Of a stretch of DNA of 64,000 nt, positions 27,759 through 46,787 are shown in pieces. The stretch lies in contig NZ_CP029639.1 in assembly GCF_003268635.1 (NCBI RefSeq), positions 5,157,501 to 5,221,500 on the forward strand, in the 5' to 3' direction. Source of the stretch: Paenibacillus sp. DCT19. GTDB lineage: Bacteria > Bacillota > Bacilli > Paenibacillales > Paenibacillaceae. Within the stretch, counting starts at the first letter, position 1. Each line of letters begins with the position of its first letter. Below the pieces are notes generated by a model. That model was not told where the DNA came from. It worked only from the letters and a program-made list of their open reading frames with translations, and made no database searches. A program made the position numbers and the translations under genes.

Positions 27759-27781
27759 CATTTTTGCTTGAAAAATTTCAT

Positions 27782-27840
<59 letters not shown>

Positions 27841-27855
<15 letters not shown>

Positions 27856-28025
27856 TATTAGAAAAACTTCCTTTGGGAAGTTTTTTTGCGTTCTAGGGAT
27901 GAGAACCCCAACGGTTCGTCGGAGCATACACTTCGATAGCACCGCTTCGCAGTCTCGACTGTAAGGAGAGTATCCCTCCTGGGACGTATTAAGAAAAACT
28001 CCCTTTGGGAAGTTTTTTGCGTTCT
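27841..28025 (+). repeat. tandem duplication of tRNA-Arg 3' end plus terminator (left locus)
   Basis: The 54 bases at 27841-27894 (last 15 bases of the tRNA, terminator hairpin, GCGTTCT) are repeated at 27972-28025 with three differences; a second hairpin (27995-28017) follows the extra tRNA tail. The 77-base spacer contains CGGTTCGTCGGAGCATA. The same arrangement occurs inverted at 34849-35062. Confidence 0.9.
27863..27887 (+). terminator. intrinsic terminator of the left tRNA-Arg
   Basis: Stem AAACTTCC/GGAAGTTT, loop TTTG, followed by TTTTT, starting eight bases after the tRNA. Confidence 0.88.
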
Positions 28026-34848: not shown

Positions 34849-35062
34849 ACGAAGCCTATGCTCCGACGAACCATTGGGGTTCTCATCCCTTGGACGCAAA
34901 AAACTTCCCGAAGGAAGTCTTTTTTTCTTACGTCCCAGGAGGGATACTCTCCTTTTAGTCGAGACTGCGAAGTAATCCTAACGATGCCCATGCTCCGACG
35001 AACCGCCGGGGTTCTCATCCCTTGAACGCAAAAAAAACTCCCCGAAGGAAGTCTTTTGCTTA
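34849..35062 (-). repeat. tandem duplication of tRNA-Arg 3' end, terminator and spacer (right locus)
   Basis: Minus-strand counterpart of the left locus. Downstream of the tRNA come a terminator (35028-35057), a spacer with CGGTTCGTCGGAGCATG, an extra 15-base tRNA tail (34931-34945), another terminator (34898-34920) and a second, partial spacer copy (34849-34892). It is inverted relative to 27841-28025, about 7 kb apart. Confidence 0.9.
35028..35057 (-). terminator. intrinsic terminator of the right tRNA-Arg
   Basis: Minus-strand ACTTCC.TCGG.GGAGT hairpin followed by eight T, six bases after the tRNA 3' end. Confidence 0.85.
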
Positions 35063-35136
<74 letters not shown>

Positions 35137-35168
35137 AAATATGTATTAAAAAATACCGCGTGATCTCT

Positions 35169-40406: not shown

Positions 40407-40665
40407 GTCTTTTCCCCCGCCTGCTTAAAATGCCTTGCTAGTCTCCATATGTATTAAGCCTGACTAAATCACCTCTATCCTCCTTTCAGTGCAGAACTGG
40501 ATAAATAAATTGCGATAATTTAATTTTGTTAGCATACTCACACACAACAATTAGGTCTTTAGTATCAATCTATACTATATTTCATATTTATTGAGACGAA
40601 TTCGACATTATACTACACAACTTATATCCAAATTTTAAAACTTTGAAACTTTAGACCTAAATAAA

Positions 40666-40705
40666 AAAGACTTTACTCAGCTTGCCCGGCTGAAATAAAG
40701 TCTTT
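40666..40705 (-). terminator. intrinsic terminator of the STM4011-4015-like operon
   Basis: Stem AAAGACTTTA..CAGC / GCTG..TAAAGTCTTT followed on the minus strand by TTTTTTATTT, 30 bases past the last gene of the operon. Confidence 0.88.
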
Positions 40706-40734
40706 AGTCTTATAAATGAGTGCCAATCATGATC

Positions 40735-41598
40735 TTAACGGTGGATCAACTCTGGATTTCGCTCAAGAAGTCCGGTGCCGAAAATGTCTCTAAACGGTGA
40801 ATCTTCCATATGAATGTAGCCAATATAACAACCACATTTCTTCATGCTACAAGGACGGTCTGCCGCCAAAGCTTCTAAACCATCGCGATACAAATGTCCA
40901 ATGATCCGGCGATCTTTGTAACATCTCTTTACATGTCCTGACCCTTGCACATAAAACACATTAGAACCAGCCGCACAACGCTTGCCCAAGCTGTCATAAT
41001 CCTGCAGATTACCTTCAAAAAGCGGGTCAATCTGCCGCAAAAACTGAATTTCCTCTGGGGTGTAATACTTGGGGCGATCCTTGAAGGCATTGACCCACAT
41101 ATACACATCGCTCGGTAGATGCTCCCTCATCGATTGAATAGCAGGGAAGGCGCTACGTAATCCCACCGTGCCTACACTGAATCCAATGCTCATTTCTCGC
41201 AAAGTCATACACTGTTTCACAAAGGAAGACTCTTTCGTTTCACGCGGATGATATGTTGCCCAGAATGCCGCTTTGTGCTTGTTAAGTTCTCGAGCCCAAT
41301 CCAGTTTGACAGATAGATTGGTCTGCACAGCAATTTTATCTACATGAGGCATATGGGATAGCTCTACCATCGCTTCACGGTACCAACGCCGAACCAATGC
41401 TTCTCCATACGGATTAAAGAAAATGGAAAATTGGTCTCCTGTACCCTCCTGTTCTCTCACCCAGTTTACAAATTGACGTAGTTGCTGTTCGTCCAGCGCC
41501 AGCGTCTCTTTGGAATCTACCGTTTTACTGAACGGACAATAGGGGCAGTCGTAGTTACAAGATGACAGCTTGCCGCGATAATATAAGGTGGCTCTCAT
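40735..41598 (-). CDS. STM4011-family radical SAM protein
   Basis: 287 residues. Radical SAM cluster motif C14-x3-C18-x2-C21 (CNYDCPYC), preceded by LYYRGKLSSC. The C-terminal part has RCAAGSN...GSGHVKRCY and PCSMKKCGC, i.e. a G-x4-C followed by grouped cysteines, like a shortened SPASM/twitch domain that would hold an auxiliary cluster. I recognise it as the STM4011 type, always found with STM4012-STM4015 relatives. ATG overlaps the stop codon of the upstream gene as ATGA, so it is translationally coupled and last in the operon. No pathway is known to me; SPASM-type enzymes usually modify peptides or proteins. Confidence 0.85.
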   Translation of the reverse strand: MRATLYYRGKLSSCNYDCPYCPFSKTVDSKETLALDEQQLRQFVNWVREQEGTGDQFSIFFNPYGEALVRRWYREAMVELSHMPHVDKIAVQTNLSVKLDWARELNKHKAAFWATYHPRETKESSFVKQCMTLREMSIGFSVGTVGLRSAFPAIQSMREHLPSDVYMWVNAFKDRPKYYTPEEIQFLRQIDPLFEGNLQDYDSLGKRCAAGSNVFYVQGSGHVKRCYKDRRIIGHLYRDGLEALAADRPCSMKKCGCYIGYIHMEDSPFRDIFGTGLLERNPELIHR

Positions 41599-42992
41599 GA
41601 GAATACAAACCCTTCCATTTGTTCACGGATTTCGGATGATATTAACCAATCTCCAATGGCATCCGAGTACCCTAGCCCTTCTTCTGTCAAACGTAAGAAT
41701 TCCACACCCATTTCCGTCTTAAGCTCCGCCATTCCTTCGGTCAGCAATTCACCAAGCCAGCTGTAATCGGACATCACATTTGTTCCAAATCGCTGATCAT
41801 AATCCTGTAACGCTAAGCCCTCTCGGTGAAGAAGCGCTTTGAGAATGAATCTCCGCTTCTGCTCCTCATGACTCAGCACAATCCCATAGTCAGCCACATC
41901 ATATCGCTCCGTAGCCACATAATCTGCTATGATGCTCTGCGTCGCTTTATAACTAACCCCGTACTTCGAAGCATAGTGCACTTCGCTTGTATATGAGCGA
42001 GCCCCGCAACCAAGTCCAACCATGCCTTCCTCCTGACAGCTATAAGGTAAAAGTACCTTCGCTCCCGTAGAGGATTGCTCCTTGGCAAATCTGCGCATGG
42101 AATACTGCACATATCCGCGATTCTTCAAGGTCTCCCGTGCCGCTCTGTATAGCTCCATCCGAATGTCCGGCCCCTGGCGCTCTATATCATCCGGTTTCAC
42201 AATCGTATTCTCTCGCGTATAAAGTGGATATATGAAAATCTCACCCGGTTCATATGCAAGGACACGTTCCAGCGAATACAGCCATGATTCAACGGTCTGT
42301 CCAGGTAGACCATAGATTAGATCCAGATTCAATAGTGGAAAATCATATTTTGTTAGCTTTTCGAGAGCTCGCTCCACTTCCTGCGGTTTCTGCGGGCGAT
42401 AGATCGCTGAAGCCTCTGCTTCAATGAAGCTCTGGATACCCATACTCACACGATCGACACTTCGCCCCTTCATAATGGCAAGCTTGGCATCTGTTACCGT
42501 ATCGGGAGATGTCTCTACTGAGATGGAGGCTTGTTGTGGGTTAAGACCCATCACATTTTCCGCAATATCAAACAGTCGATTTAACTGTACTTCGTTTAAT
42601 AACGTAGGTGTTCCTCCACCGATAGCAAAACGCGAATAGGGTCTACGCGAAGTGATTGGTGCCCATTGTTTCGCTTGACGCTCCAAGGCATCCACATAGC
42701 GCTCATGCGTATCATCTCTCCGATCTGGTAATGTAAACAGGTTGCAGAATCCACAACGTGCTGCACAAAACGGGATGTGCATATACAAAAAATAAGTATC
42801 TGTATTCTCACGTTCCCATAACGGTGCGAGTGGCATAGGTGGATCTAGCTCACGATAGGCTGTCTTATGAGGATAAGAGTACAAATACGAACGATACGGC
42901 GATGTAAGGACTTCTCTAAGACTTGTAGCTGTATTGGACGACCCGGACTTTACGGAATGACCTGTTGTCATTGTGTAATCTTGACGATTCAT
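41595..42992 (-). CDS. STM4012-family radical SAM protein (HemN/HemW-like)
   Basis: 465 residues. HemN-type cluster motif C76-x3-C80-x2-C83 within YMHIPFCAARCGFCNLF, the GGGTPT SAM-binding segment near 125, ETSPDTV, GIQSF and NLDLIYGLPGQT, all shared with HemN/HemW. It carries a C-terminal helical domain like HemN but the N-terminal 60 residues (SLREVLTSPYRSYLYSYPHKTAYR) are specific to the STM4012 group. So it is a HemN-fold enzyme on an unknown substrate, not coproporphyrinogen oxidase. ATG follows AGGAGG. It is 73 bases after the hydrolase gene, with a strong hairpin in the gap. Confidence 0.87.
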   Translation of the reverse strand: MNRQDYTMTTGHSVKSGSSNTATSLREVLTSPYRSYLYSYPHKTAYRELDPPMPLAPLWERENTDTYFLYMHIPFCAARCGFCNLFTLPDRRDDTHERYVDALERQAKQWAPITSRRPYSRFAIGGGTPTLLNEVQLNRLFDIAENVMGLNPQQASISVETSPDTVTDAKLAIMKGRSVDRVSMGIQSFIEAEASAIYRPQKPQEVERALEKLTKYDFPLLNLDLIYGLPGQTVESWLYSLERVLAYEPGEIFIYPLYTRENTIVKPDDIERQGPDIRMELYRAARETLKNRGYVQYSMRRFAKEQSSTGAKVLLPYSCQEEGMVGLGCGARSYTSEVHYASKYGVSYKATQSIIADYVATERYDVADYGIVLSHEEQKRRFILKALLHREGLALQDYDQRFGTNVMSDYSWLGELLTEGMAELKTEMGVEFLRLTEEGLGYSDAIGDWLISSEIREQMEGFVFS

Positions 42993-43019
42993 CGGTTTCC
43001 TCCTATCTCCGGTTAATTT

Positions 43020-43047
43020 AAAGTACGACTACTGAAAGTCGTACTTT
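43020..43047. other. strong hairpin between STM4013-like and STM4012-like genes
   Basis: Perfect 11-bp stem AAAGTACGACT/AGTCGTACTTT with a six-base loop, inside the 73-base gap of the operon. On the minus strand it is followed by TTTAAATT, too weak for full termination. It could attenuate, or protect or process the mRNA so the radical SAM genes are made at a different level. Confidence 0.7.
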
Positions 43048-43065
43048 ATTGAATATTCACTATAT

Positions 43066-43851
43066 CTATAACACAAATTCACGATACGGCACGTTCCAGA
43101 CGACGTCATGTGCCAAGCGATGTCCTTGATAGCCATCCTCACCATATGCGGTTCCATGATCGGAAAACGCGAGGCAAAATGTCGGCCTAGAACGTTCTCT
43201 CATCGCTTCAAATAACGGTCCGAGCGCTTGATCGACATAACGTAGCGCAGCTCGCTGCGTCTCAATGGAGTCTTCTCTGGCTCCCTCTACAAAATACCGA
43301 TTCGGACCATGAATAGCCGAGACATTCAGGAATAGAAACAGCTTCTCCTCCGGAGGAATTTGCTTGAGCAGTTTCAATGCATGCTGCACCTGATTCTCGG
43401 TTGAACGGGGGTTCGTCACTCCAAAGTTCATACGCCAATAGCTCTGCTGGAAATAACCTGGAAGCACTTTGGCAAGCGGGTTTTTCTTTGTAAAAAAAAT
43501 AACACCGCCAATGCATACTGTGCGATATCCCTCAGCCGCAAGCCCAGACACGATATCGGGCGTGTCGAATAGCCACGTATGAGGATGAGTCTTCAATCCC
43601 GTATTCCGGGAATGAAACAACCGCACATGAGAAGCTTTGTCCGTATTGGCAGGCGTTGGCATAAAGCCACCAAAAAAAGCATGGTGTGCCGCATAAGTGA
43701 AGCTGCCGGGCGTATGCCGTTTCTCCCATGAACCTGTGCCGCACAAGTTGGGACAATTCGATTCTTCCAATTTGGCCACGTCATACCTCAACGTATCGAG
43801 CGTAATCATTAATAGATCATGAGAGCCCACGATGGTGTTCATATCAGGCAT
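43066..43851 (-). CDS. STM4013/SEN3800-family hydrolase (alkaline phosphatase superfamily)
   Basis: 261 residues. N-terminal metal-site sequence LLMITLDTLRYD (Asp19, Asp24), TPGSFTYAAHHAFFGGF where the nucleophile would lie, and a C-terminal FSDHGTAYGEDGYQGHR with further metal ligands; this is the sulfatase/phosphatase superfamily in a short version. ATG at 43851 has AAAGGAG ten bases upstream; its first bases overlap the end of the ATP-grasp gene by eight. Family members remove or transfer phosphate or sulfate groups; the substrate is unknown. Confidence 0.85.
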   Translation of the reverse strand: MPDMNTIVGSHDLLMITLDTLRYDVAKLEESNCPNLCGTGSWEKRHTPGSFTYAAHHAFFGGFMPTPANTDKASHVRLFHSRNTGLKTHPHTWLFDTPDIVSGLAAEGYRTVCIGGVIFFTKKNPLAKVLPGYFQQSYWRMNFGVTNPRSTENQVQHALKLLKQIPPEEKLFLFLNVSAIHGPNRYFVEGAREDSIETQRAALRYVDQALGPLFEAMRERSRPTFCLAFSDHGTAYGEDGYQGHRLAHDVVWNVPYREFVL

Positions 43852-45082
43852 AGTAGTCGGGCTCCTTTCGTAAAAGTTCCATTTGCCAATCATATGTACC
43901 CAGCCCATGATGCTGTACCCGATATAAGAGATCCCCAAACGGGTTAACATCCAGAACGTAAGCACGTGGTTCAGTTCCACTGAGCATGACATCGATTCCC
44001 GCAGACCATGAGTTCGGAAATGCAGACAGTGCCGCTTGGGCAGCGTTCTGAATTAATAACATCTGTTCATCCTTCAATCCTGCCTCTGTAGGCAGCAGAC
44101 GATCATTCCTTAAATGAAGGTTCGTGATCGGTGTCTTGCTTAGACGAACGATTGCGTGACCCACCTGTCCACCAGCGACAAGCTGACGAACATCAAATAC
44201 ACGTGAGCCAATGGTTGATTTCGCCATCCAGCGTTCAATCTGTGCTCCTTCCGCACATAACCAGTCCAAAAGAATTCTAATCTCTTCCGTACGGGTATAT
44301 CTGCGCATGCTACCTTCATTATAAAAAATCACTTCTGCCCCATTCCGCTCCATTCCCACAGTTGTTATAGCAATCTCAGCACCCGTTCGTGGATTGAACT
44401 GATATGCTACTACACCGGAAGCGCCTGAGCCACAAGCGAGTTTAACAAATATACGGTGCATCCCTTCAGACTTCATAGCCGTACGTAACTCGCCATAACT
44501 CCGAATCGGAACATCAGCTTGAAGCGAAGGCGGTACGGTTATACCGTTAGCAGACAACTGCTGCTGGCAGCGCCTTTTATCAAACATGGTTATGATGTCT
44601 GTAGGATGATTTAGAAAGCGAGCAGATGGGAAGAATTGCTGAACTTCCTTGTCTATTCGTTCCAAACACGCCTTCCAGCCGTCAAACCATTGAGCAGGTG
44701 CGTAGATCCGCCCCCATTCCTGCTCTAGCAACAACGCCTGTTCCTGCGGAACCATCATACGGTGATCTTCCTGATGAAGCGCCGAGTATACGCTCGCACC
44801 CAGAGACAAGAGTTCACGTTCCACATTCCAGTTCTCGCCCGGTGCATCCATTCGTATGAAGAATGAATAATCGTCAGCATCTTCTTGGCCTACACCTTGT
44901 GAGATCACTTCTGAGACTGCATCCCTGAGTGTCCGTCCTTGCCTCCACGTATGTAGCAAATCAATATAGGACAATACCATTGCAGGTTTCAACCCTTGCC
45001 TCAATCTCGCTTGCTGCAAAGCAAATGTACGCCGATTATCCGGATTCCCAATAAGCAGAAAAGGTCGTTCTTGATCGCTCAC
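43844..45082 (-). CDS. STM4014-family ATP-grasp protein
   Basis: 412 residues. The C-terminal half has ATP-grasp features: IFVKLACGSGASGVVAY (about 232-248, ATP-binding lysine and glycine loop) and the Mg-binding end GIDVML...YVLDVNPFGDLL (about 372-396) with Asp and Asn. The N-terminal half is unique to the family. ATP-grasp enzymes make acyl-phosphate intermediates and join them to amines or thiols, so a ligase step is likely. Starts 2 bases after the LRR gene stop and overlaps the hydrolase gene by eight bases. No recognised product. Confidence 0.84.
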   Translation of the reverse strand: MSDQERPFLLIGNPDNRRTFALQQARLRQGLKPAMVLSYIDLLHTWRQGRTLRDAVSEVISQGVGQEDADDYSFFIRMDAPGENWNVERELLSLGASVYSALHQEDHRMMVPQEQALLLEQEWGRIYAPAQWFDGWKACLERIDKEVQQFFPSARFLNHPTDIITMFDKRRCQQQLSANGITVPPSLQADVPIRSYGELRTAMKSEGMHRIFVKLACGSGASGVVAYQFNPRTGAEIAITTVGMERNGAEVIFYNEGSMRRYTRTEEIRILLDWLCAEGAQIERWMAKSTIGSRVFDVRQLVAGGQVGHAIVRLSKTPITNLHLRNDRLLPTEAGLKDEQMLLIQNAAQAALSAFPNSWSAGIDVMLSGTEPRAYVLDVNPFGDLLYRVQHHGLGTYDWQMELLRKEPDYYA

Positions 45083-45084
45083 CT

Positions 45085-45927
45085 TTATTCCGTCAAGGAC
45101 GGATACCGCCAGTCATCCTCATCACTTTGCTGCTGATCACTCACATCGACAGAGATCCCCGAACGTTTCCATTGAATGAGCATTTCGTCGGTCATGTAGT
45201 GATAGCTCAGATCCAGATGCTTTAATTTTTTGATCTTGTCGCTAGCTAGAAGAGCCTCAGCCCCTGCATCAGATAAAGTGCCCTGGGAGAGATCCAACAC
45301 TTCAAGTTGATCCAGAATAGGAGCCTCAGCAATTGCCTGTGCGATCTCATCCTGAATTTCACTATCTTTCAGACCCAGATACACGAGTTTCGGGAATCTT
45401 CCCTGTTCAAACAGCGGGCTTACATCCTCTAATGAACCATCGAAGCCATAATCTTCGACACCTAAATATAACTCCAGCTTCCGTAGCTCAGGTAAATTGG
45501 CATGAGTAACGGAGGATATTACTTTTTTCGGTAAGCCCCCACAAATAATCACCAGTTCTTCTAGGTTTGCATGCTCCAACGGTTCCAGACTAAGGTCATT
45601 ACTTCCTTTAATCCAGAACGATTTTAATTGAGGAAACGTTCTTAATAATGGCGTTAGATCTGTTTGGATAATCCAAGATACTTCACACTCTTCGAAACCC
45701 ATATCCCCGATAAACAATTTCTTCAGCGACGGAAAATTCGGAGCCAGCTCAACAAGCTTAGCTATGAAACCATCAGGTGAAGTCTCGTAGGCTTGTCCCC
45801 AATCTCCAATGACCAAACTTTCGAGTGTGCGACTTTCCGGTTTAGCGGCAAGTTCTTCAAGTAAATTCTCAATTCGAATTCCATTCTCATAGTCATCATA
45901 AGATACTGTAAGCTTCACTTCCTGCAT
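45085..45927 (-). CDS. STM4015-family leucine-rich repeat protein
   Basis: 280 residues built of about eight leucine-rich repeats (LESLVIGDWG, LKKLFIGDMGF, LEELVIICGG, LVYLGLKDSEIQD, LEVLDLSQGTLSDAG, LKHLDLSYHYMTDE and others). No signal peptide or membrane segment, so it is cytoplasmic and likely a protein-binding scaffold. The ATG at 45927 follows GGAGGGG; the frame is open upstream to about 46080 but without an RBS and with sequence unlike the family. First gene of the operon; its start is close to a small unassigned frame. It is the family member that could bind a peptide or protein substrate for the radical SAM enzymes. Confidence 0.83.
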   Translation of the reverse strand: MQEVKLTVSYDDYENGIRIENLLEELAAKPESRTLESLVIGDWGQAYETSPDGFIAKLVELAPNFPSLKKLFIGDMGFEECEVSWIIQTDLTPLLRTFPQLKSFWIKGSNDLSLEPLEHANLEELVIICGGLPKKVISSVTHANLPELRKLELYLGVEDYGFDGSLEDVSPLFEQGRFPKLVYLGLKDSEIQDEIAQAIAEAPILDQLEVLDLSQGTLSDAGAEALLASDKIKKLKHLDLSYHYMTDEMLIQWKRSGISVDVSDQQQSDEDDWRYPSLTE

Positions 45928-46064: not shown

Positions 46065-46096
46065 AGGTATAAGAACTCACGTTCTCATCAAAAGCA

Positions 46097-46164: not shown

Positions 46165-46787
46165 TTAATTCGCCAGTCTGGAAACGAGTGCTCTAAGTGC
46201 ATGGCCGCGGTGACTGATGGCTTGTTTCTGTTCAAGTGTCAATTCAGCCATAGTCATCTCGTACTCAGGCACATAGAAAAGTGGATCATATCCAAAGCCA
46301 CCAGCACCTGCTGCTTCAGCCATAATCCAGCCTTCCGCAGTGCCTTCCGCCTCAAACTTATCTCCGGTTGCTGGATCATACAACACCAACGCACAGACAA
46401 AGCGTGCCGGACTAAGCAACGGTTGCTCTGTATCTTCCCAGATTTCAACGTTTCAAGCGCATCCAGCAATTTAGCATTGTTCTGCTCATCCGTTGCCCCT
46501 TCACCTGCATATCTTGCTGAATATACTCCTGGATCTCCGTCTAATAGATCAACGCATAACCCGGAATCGTCAGCGAGTACCGGAAGACCAAGCGCATCAC
46601 CTACGGTTTTGGCTTTCTTCCACGCGTTCTCCGCAAACGTTACGCCATCCTCAACGACATCTGGTAGTTCAGGATAATCAAACATACTCTTGACCTCTTT
46701 GCCAAGGGGAGCAAAGGCATGAGCGAACTCCCTTACTTTCCCTTGATTACGAGTAGCAACAATGATAATGGAACTATCCAAGCTCAT
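46165..46787 (-). CDS. rdgB: XTP/dITP diphosphatase RdgB (HAM1), split by a one-base deletion
   Basis: Hydrolyses non-canonical purine triphosphates (dITP, XTP). The first frame holds IIVATRNQGKVREF (N terminus), ADDSGLCVDLLDGDPGVYSARYAGEGATD and ends wrongly as KSGKIQSNRC. The second frame resumes DTEQPLLSPARFVCALVLYD and runs through GFGYDPLFYVPEY and SHRGHALRAL. One extra G at the CCC run (46437-46439, plus strand) gives SGEDTEQPLL and a 207-residue protein, the family length. ATG at 46787 lies two bases past the rph stop. Probably intact in the organism. Confidence 0.9.

Follow-up and report, generated by a model that had tools for sequence, protein, structure and literature searches.

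A conserved C-terminal glutamate in the leucine-rich-repeat protein of the STM4011–STM4015 cassette suggests a possible carrier-protein pathway

We analysed a 64,000-nucleotide stretch of the 6.67-Mb genome of Paenibacillus sp. DCT19 (assembly GCF_003268635.1, contig NZ_CP029639.1, positions 5,157,501 to 5,221,500), called the window below, and focused on five neighbouring minus-strand genes of the families STM4015, STM4014, STM4013, STM4012 and STM4011. The leucine-rich-repeat (LRR) protein STM4015 was found to end almost universally in glutamate, which is the new observation here, and its gene lies beside that of STM4014, an ATP-grasp enzyme with apparent kinship to RimK and LysX. We consider it marginally probable that these genes form a carrier-protein (or protein-substrate) pathway in which the terminal Glu of STM4015 is the ligation site. 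A sequence-only reading of this stretch had cast the LRR protein as the holder of a separate substrate, whereas its C-terminal Glu points to the LRR protein being the substrate or carrier itself; the overall interpretation given in that reading is partly supported. What sequence comparison shows directly is the existence of the cassette and the joint occurrence of its members, the conservation of Glu at the end of STM4015, and the enzyme families with the residues conserved in each.

In the window, STM4015 is a 280-aa protein (45085..45927; NCBIfam NF038076, 359.9 bits against a cut-off of 275) that closes with the tail W-R-Y-P-S-L-T-E and a stop codon (45085..45111), Glu280 being the last residue. 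Glu was the last residue in 107 of 108 STM4015 copies of at least 230 aa, the window copy included, and Val in the other one; with the best copy per locus in an earlier locus set, the count was 88 of 89. Glu280 was invariant in an alignment of 11 sequences from seven genera including Paenibacillus (A1). Among 18 diverse representatives, chosen by a simple similarity ratio and including paralogues of one genome, Glu came last in 17, and the final position carried 4.01 bits, with the next best tail position at 3.05. The last residues of STM4014, STM4013, STM4012 and STM4011 carried 1.29, 1.48, 2.00 and 1.84 bits, respectively (10–11 sequences each). The terminal codon in the 107 copies fetched was GAA (61), GAG (45) or GTA (1), followed by any of the three stops; as neither the Glu codon nor the stop is fixed, the constraint acts on the residue. 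Outside Paenibacillus, all 27 copies from 22 chosen loci ended in Glu, in a list that left out L087, L091 and the exceptional L095. The 27 tails had T, G, S or A at −2, mostly V or L at −3, mostly Y at −6 and mostly R at −7, and tail positions other than −1 thus show preferences only. A search of the window's own genome for an RYPxxTE-stop DNA pattern, covering four of the six Arg codons, matched STM4015 alone.

The tail follows a variable, mostly acidic linker. The AlphaFold2 model showed a confident LRR fold (mean confidence, pLDDT, 91.9) and a last ten-residue block of pLDDT 67 that formed neither helix nor strand. Both Foldseek and a HMMER profile (E 1.2e-99) identified a solved family member, PDB 2ra8 from Bacteroides fragilis (Q64V53), whose match closes with YPMITE, the Glu being residue 354 of 362 and followed by eight more residues, presumably an expression tag. 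This structure was deposited as uncharacterised, and no paper naming 2RA8 appeared in the literature searched. Three actinomycete replicons have lone STM4015 paralogues in addition to the cassette, and these paralogues retain the tail (RYTQVAE, RYVEVSE, RFVAVSE and others). In one Embleya replicon the copies in trans keep the terminal RYxxVxE at 47–54% identity among themselves and with the operon copy. Several tail-keeping copies in trans would be expected if one enzyme set serves several carriers. The sole copy without a terminal Glu (L095, ending in TV) stands alone, in a metagenome-assembled genome (G698) that has no STM4014 or STM4011 match and no STM4012 above the cut-off.

The second part of the argument concerns STM4014 (412 aa with a GTG start, 43844..45082; NF038074, 408.7 bits, cut-off 175). 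Profile comparison with solved structures placed RimK first (7e-5 and 7.9e-5), followed by LysX (1e-4; 3vpd, 2.4e-4). At E 0.01, the named NCBIfam models most often matched by 22 diverse family members were rimK_fam (13 members), MptN (12), LysX (12) and CofF (5), and graspetide-type ligases were matched by few of them (MvdC 1, SAV_5884 2). MptN and CofF are Glu-adding cofactor enzymes, with acceptors that have a terminal carboxylate of glutamyl type. In Foldseek, the structural model of STM4014 (pLDDT 91.7) matched the LysX/ArgX–LysW complex 5k2m at 3.4e-11, and the highest target-normalised TM-scores among the 50 matches listed were those of LysX/ArgX (0.74) and RimK (0.71). Residues invariant in the family alignment (A2) include K214, E283, D297, R299, D364 and N380. 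Judged from its model, STM4014 has an ATP-grasp fold related to RimK and LysX, and the pairing of such an enzyme with a neighbouring protein that conserves Glu at its C-terminus forms the core of the carrier argument.

The five genes also behave as a unit. All five families were present in 94 of 103 loci, a figure that is not a prevalence because the loci were gathered through the cassette proteins. These 94 loci come from Bacillota, Pseudomonadota (Salmonella, Methylobacterium, Undibacterium), Actinomycetota and Deinococcota, together with one viral-collection contig (L098). The nine incomplete loci comprise a contig end (L072), a decayed Bacteroides cassette in which STM4012 is missing and STM4013 is reduced to a fragment (L011), a dispersed case (L125) and six lone STM4015 copies (L014, L095, L115, L117, L120 and L123, the last four on replicons that also hold the cassette). 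Homologues that occur apart in many genomes, which the sequence-only reading had named as evidence against its view, were not what we found: in a sample of 299 genomes from the window's phylum, the window genome included, scores above the cut-off were confined to six genomes, the same ones for each of the five families. When sub-cut-off matches at E 0.001 were counted, the numbers were 7 for STM4015, 66 for STM4014, 26 for STM4011, 12 for STM4013 and 288 for STM4012, and many such relatives of STM4012 and STM4014 are expected for HemN-like and ATP-grasp proteins. In one genome (G232), STM4015 lies on contig C176, where none of the other cassette genes occurs in the roughly 6 kb downstream of it, STM4014 on C77, and STM4013, STM4012 and STM4011 together on C14, so that co-occurrence here is more than physical linkage. 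STM4015 exceeded its cut-off in one of 398 Pseudomonadota genomes, the centre genome of that sample. Among 72,556 plasmid records, 14 held STM4015 and 13 STM4011, with hosts in Deinococcus, Streptomyces, Embleya, Nonomuraea, Methylobacterium, Bacteroides, Salmonella and Paenibacillus, and in Calothrix with STM4015 alone. The Salmonella cassette was not found in the E. coli genomes of the collection at megablast sensitivity. The cassette is a real unit, rare and scattered. The scan of genome contigs kept the closest 80 of at least 577 confirmed stretches and is hence mostly Paenibacillus, and phyla beyond Bacillota and Pseudomonadota are represented by plasmid records and by L098, the viral-collection contig. 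Gene starts at the loci were called by script from tblastn matches and some may be off; C-termini are independent of the starts.

In our proposal, STM4015 would be a folded LRR platform whose C-terminal arm is flexible and mostly acidic. STM4014 would activate the carboxyl of the terminal Glu and ligate to it an amino acid or another amine; the loaded arm would then be presented to the twitch/SPASM-type STM4011 and the HemN-type STM4012, and these two radical SAM enzymes may modify the attached unit. STM4013, in some genomes together with a HAD phosphatase, would remove or transfer a phosphate group. We infer the role of Glu as ligation site, the order of these steps, and modification of the attached unit rather than of the tail side chains. 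The complete scheme, a swinging-arm LRR platform whose Glu is loaded by the ATP-grasp enzyme and whose cargo is converted by two different radical SAM enzymes into a new released metabolite or a new protein-bound cofactor, would be a novel type of biosynthesis on a carrier protein; it is a tentative proposal that we hold at somewhat less than even confidence. Because no recurrent release peptidase was seen in a rough screen of the flanks, the modified STM4015 itself may be the product, as a protein-bound cofactor. The ATP-dependent ligation and radical modification put forward in the sequence-only reading gained support, through enzyme kinship only.

The closest known systems show where this proposal has precedent (papers are cited by PMC number and are represented here by excerpts). 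LysX attaches its substrate to LysW through the gamma-carboxyl of the carrier's last residue, a Glu; the LysW tail EDWGE is recognised via a GSWGR motif, and the E54A replacement in a haloarchaeal ArgW leads to arginine auxotrophy (PMC10433800). The proposed system would share with LysW/LysX (ArgX) a carrier that is extended at its C-terminus, has a small residue at −2 and receives the substrate on its final Glu (PMC10433800, PMC9303977), as well as an ATP-grasp ligase of RimK/LysX type. In contrast, LysW is a zinc-binding protein of about 54 residues with an EDWGE tail, whereas STM4015 is a 280-aa LRR protein with an RYxxVxE-like tail, and the cassette has two radical SAM enzymes and phosphatase-fold proteins instead of a kinase, reductase, aminotransferase and peptidase set. 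Membership of STM4015 in the LysW family is excluded by its fold (LRR, with no zinc-binding Cys domain) and by its motif (no EDWGE). By analogy, the most economical reading is that the cassette may work like LysW/LysX without being a member of that family. RimK, the closest solved relative of STM4014 by profile, likewise ligates to a protein C-terminus, appending Glu to RpsF; its acceptor is a ribosomal protein, however, and the excerpt does not mention radical enzymes (PMC10092738). The STM4014 of the window, moreover, has no rimK_fam match at E 0.01. In the pearlin pathways to 3-thiaglutamate and 3-thiahomoleucine, the product is built on the C-terminus of a ribosomal carrier, with a radical SAM enzyme in one of them, but loading is tRNA-dependent through a PEARL enzyme, the carrier is a peptide and release is by a protease (PMC9303977). 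No PEARL ligase, scaffold peptide or release protease was found among the five window proteins or their families.

Several observations weigh against the proposed carrier pathway. Most of the 108 copies are from Paenibacillus, so independent events are far fewer than the count suggests, and the L095 exception is a single metagenome-assembled genome that may be incomplete. A lone Calothrix STM4015 keeps its Glu, and its plasmid, the one replicon covered by the search, has no STM4014. Conservation near the end is also seen in STM4012 (2.97 bits at −4 and −7, 10 sequences), and several stretches of the STM4015 body are more conserved than its tail. As for STM4014, the profile alignments with two RimK examples and one LysX example each consist of two short, individually weak stretches, and the window protein matches neither LysX nor rimK_fam at E 0.01. 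The commonest Pfam matches among the 22 members were instead to ATP-grasp models outside the RimK family, with RimK itself in few: ATPgrasp_ST (11), ATP-grasp_3 (10), YheCD (6) and RimK (2). The top Foldseek match was the inositol-phosphate kinase Vip1 (1.0e-11), with D-Ala-D-Ala ligases and the graspetide ligase PsnB close behind and root-mean-square deviations of at least 5 angstrom among the matches listed. As Vip1, LysX/ArgX, RimK, D-Ala-D-Ala ligases and PsnB have similar E-values, the reaction is not decided by fold alone. Finally, unlike in pearlin pathways, no product-releasing peptidase is encoded in the cassette or recurred nearby in a rough screen of the flanks.

The two radical SAM enzymes bear on what would happen after loading. 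STM4011 (287 aa, 40735..41598; NF038073, 402.8 bits, cut-off 200) contains both motifs quoted in the sequence-only reading, CNYDCPYC and PCSMKKCGC. In an alignment of 22 sequences (A5), C14, C18 and C21 (CxxxCxxC) were invariant together with C208, C226, C250, C255 and C257, and the C-terminal cysteines of the window protein are spaced CX12GX4C ... CX4CXC. Its best solved relatives by profile were SkfB and BtrN, with matching cysteines in the aligned SkfB stretch, and the commonest named matches among the 22 members were to the peptide maturases PapB (6), SkfB (3) and ACGX (3) and also to MoaA (3) and viperin (3). By this alignment, STM4011 has the twitch/SPASM pattern of CxxxCxxC plus auxiliary-cluster cysteines. 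The full SPASM signature comprises seven cysteines; with five invariant C-terminal Cys, STM4011 does not show it. STM4012 (465 aa, 41595..42992; NF006067, 591.8 bits, cut-off 380) has an invariant CxxxCxxC (A4) and resembles HemN (1olt, E 7.9e-58) and the methyltransferase NocN (2.1e-32) by profile. The window protein fell below the cut-offs of hemN (146.1 bits against 324.95) and HemW (155.4 against 205.4), and with this combination decarboxylation, methyl transfer and other HemN-type reactions are all possible. A PHROGs scan gave one generic radical SAM match only. An anti-phage defence system was rejected, as PADLOC gave no matches for four of the proteins; STM4012 had a partial match to the candidate PDC-M51A (2.4e-11, residues 153–263).

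The kinship of STM4011 with peptide maturases, SkfB included, is what one would expect if the cassette made a ribosomally synthesised and post-translationally modified peptide (RiPP), with the LRR protein as a very large leader and its tail of aromatics, Arg, Ser/Thr and Glu as a core that is cross-linked or cyclised and then possibly cut off. An aromatic residue occurs between −9 and −5 in all 27 listed copies from outside Paenibacillus, ATP-grasp enzymes also form graspetide lactones and lactams, and PsnB is a fold neighbour of STM4014. We nevertheless regard this explanation as unlikely. Only −1 is invariant in the 27 copies, with Y, F, S, N or G at −6, R, Y, M or S at −7 and T, G, S or A at −2, and hence there is no fixed pair of side chains to be cross-linked. 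A thioether is disfavoured since Cys occurs within the last 12 residues of only 2 of 108 copies; likewise, the SkfB-like maturases share with STM4011 a radical SAM core and matching C-terminal cysteines, but no Cys-bearing precursor was seen here and the other 106 copies have no Cys in that segment. The few graspetide-ligase matches of STM4014 and the absence of a recurrent protease gene from the rough flank screen also speak against it. A classic graspetide or sactipeptide with a small precursor was rejected on the same tail-Cys and ligase counts, with no recurrent small open reading frame (ORF) in that screen.

Another explanation takes the terminal Glu and tail as a linear motif that docks onto STM4014 or a radical enzyme, with STM4015 as a scaffold for an unrelated substrate. 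LRR domains commonly bind proteins, and terminal carboxylates can serve as recognition marks, both of which suit docking. In the Paenibacillus-rich alignment A7, mean pairwise identity was 0.50 in the linker, 0.61 in the LRR body and 0.74 in the last eight residues, a contrast that favours the carrier pathway. Yet the tail segment ranked 62 of 273, and the most conserved body segment, starting at residue 79, reached 0.94, which suits docking and counts against the carrier pathway. The segment from residue 79 is a candidate enzyme docking patch, as judged from the alignment. On the other side, a single exact last residue amid varying neighbours would be unusual for a docking motif, and the relatives of STM4014 act chemically on terminal carboxylates. 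We therefore hold docking to be improbable, and retain the carrier pathway as the preferred reading.

The remaining explanations centre on single members of the cassette. Because STM4012 is clearly HemN-like by profile, one could imagine tetrapyrrole or other cofactor synthesis or repair, with STM4012 as a variant coproporphyrinogen oxidase or a HemW-like haem protein. This is very unlikely, given that STM4012 lies below the hemN and HemW cut-offs, that the other four families are not named for haem metabolism, and that above its cut-off STM4012 tracks these four exactly in the 299 genomes. The other case concerns STM4013 (STM4013/SEN3800 family, 261 aa, 43066..43851; NF038075, 402.3 bits, cut-off 250), for which the sequence-only reading was right to name an alkaline-phosphatase fold (Pfam Sulfatase, 1.1e-10). 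Its alignment (A3) shows an invariant Thr52 in an FTYAAH-like region, probably the nucleophile position and putatively equivalent to the sulfatase Cys/Ser, and its invariant Asp, His and Thr set fits the alkaline phosphatase superfamily, with residue roles assigned by analogy. Formylglycine sulfatases use a Cys or Ser nucleophile that is converted by maturases. That STM4011 or STM4012 makes formylglycine to activate STM4013 would agree with the sulfatase-like fold and with weak STM4011 matches to anaerobic sulfatase maturases (E 0.022; two models, each matched by 1 of 22 members), but the Thr in place of Cys/Ser, and the fact that STM4014, STM4015 and STM4012 are left unexplained, make it the least probable explanation of all. 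We rejected both sulfatase maturation and variant haem synthesis on the grounds of this Thr and of the STM4012 cut-offs.

In some genomes the phosphatase-fold protein is accompanied by a second phosphatase. Three loci encode STM4011 as a fusion with a HAD phosphatase (L011, 11210–12775, and L124, 3345–4793, by Pfam; L098, 5626–7161, by similarity), and in Salmonella a HAD phosphatase gene directly follows STM4011 (L010, 13837–14571). Four HAD phosphatase queries matched only L010, L011, L015, L098 and L124 among the 103 loci, and the protein is accessory, not a core gene. Its fusion to or position after STM4011 suggests that the pathway includes a step of phosphate chemistry.

The neighbourhood comparison proposed in the sequence-only reading yielded the conserved five-gene core of 94 loci and no recurrent small precursor. 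The flank screen is rough: the longest ORFs are retained, and DUF6745 escaped it in three of the seven loci known to have that gene. Within this screen, we found no recurrent peptidase, transporter or small precursor. Its clusters reached at most 4 of 15 diverse loci (DUF6745) and 4 of 17 Paenibacillaceae loci, and its small-ORF clusters at most 2 and 3 of these, respectively. The Bacteroides copy has an S41 peptidase upstream of it. DUF6745 was rejected as a sixth core gene, with only seven genes in the 103 loci (L012, L015, L016, L017, L116, L121 and L122). In these seven loci, which span three phyla, a DUF6745 protein and a small protein of 98–109 aa adjoin the cassette. The small protein has a GEvTGHaH-like motif in the four sequences read, and the seven DUF6745 proteins end Y-x-P-x-x-[EQ]-[TA]. 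Of 11 DUF6745-matching plasmid records, seven also hold the cassette. The genes flanking the window cassette, presumably asnB, MCP, rdgB, rph and gerM, have counterparts in 14 to 24 of the 103 loci, and each of these loci belongs to Paenibacillus or to a genome of the same family.

As to the layout of the operon, all five window proteins exceeded the NCBIfam cut-off, each in its own family, with scores far beyond chance, in agreement with the family assignment of the sequence-only reading. Its account of five genes in one direction with 4- and 8-base overlaps and a 73-base gap was likewise borne out by the ORF coordinates. Transcription runs from STM4015 to STM4011 (45927–40735), with, in order, a 2-base gap, an 8-base overlap, a 73-base gap and a 4-base overlap. 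STM4015 can also be read as a longer ORF from a GTG at 46080, in which the family match begins at residue 54, two residues past the ATG at 45927. After the last gene lies a terminator-like hairpin with a U run (40655..40712, minus strand; −16.9 kcal/mol, z −2.90, 0 of 200 shuffles equally stable). This hairpin was absent from the list of a consensus promoter/terminator scan, in which promoter-like (5 against a shuffled mean of 10.8) and terminator-like (4 against 4.7) hits were both below the shuffled mean. The gene spacing and the 3′ hairpin are compatible with a single transcription unit.

We found no published function for the STM4011–STM4015 families in the literature searched, which agrees with the sequence-only reading that no product is assigned. 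Incidental mentions were a sigma-54 binding-site entry, STM4013.S (PMC3844500, excerpt), and a selection table naming STM4015 (PMC2784778, excerpt); a further incidental listing was PMC11964587. A word search in the available text of two ATP-grasp operon papers (PMC4431377, PMC8939145) gave no LRR or leucine-rich, and in the former also no STM40 or radical SAM. The operon is ordinary as annotation, with five named families, and unexplained as biology. The proposal would give five families named by Salmonella locus tags their first testable mechanism. If true, it would carry the amino-group-carrier principle over to another protein fold and into radical chemistry, with a reach from Paenibacillus and Deinococcus to Streptomyces-type actinomycetes, Methylobacterium and Salmonella.

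Four further observations were made. The viral-collection contig (L098, IMG/VR), whose viral status is taken from the collection only, holds all five families and a Bacteroides-like STM4015 tail. In an Embleya replicon (L118, 7983–10118), the STM4014 frame continues into STM4013 with a shared stop, which is not so in the related L119; the two genes may be fused, or the frame may simply stay open over a long distance in GC-rich DNA. Upstream of the window operon, an RdgB-like gene (46165–46787), which we take to be a dITP/XTP pyrophosphatase, is apparently split over two frames, through either true disruption or a sequencing error. Elsewhere in the window, two tRNA-Arg(TCT) genes of equal Rfam score lie about 7.2 kb apart in opposite orientation (27781–27856, plus strand; 35062–35137, minus strand), a possible integration-site arrangement.

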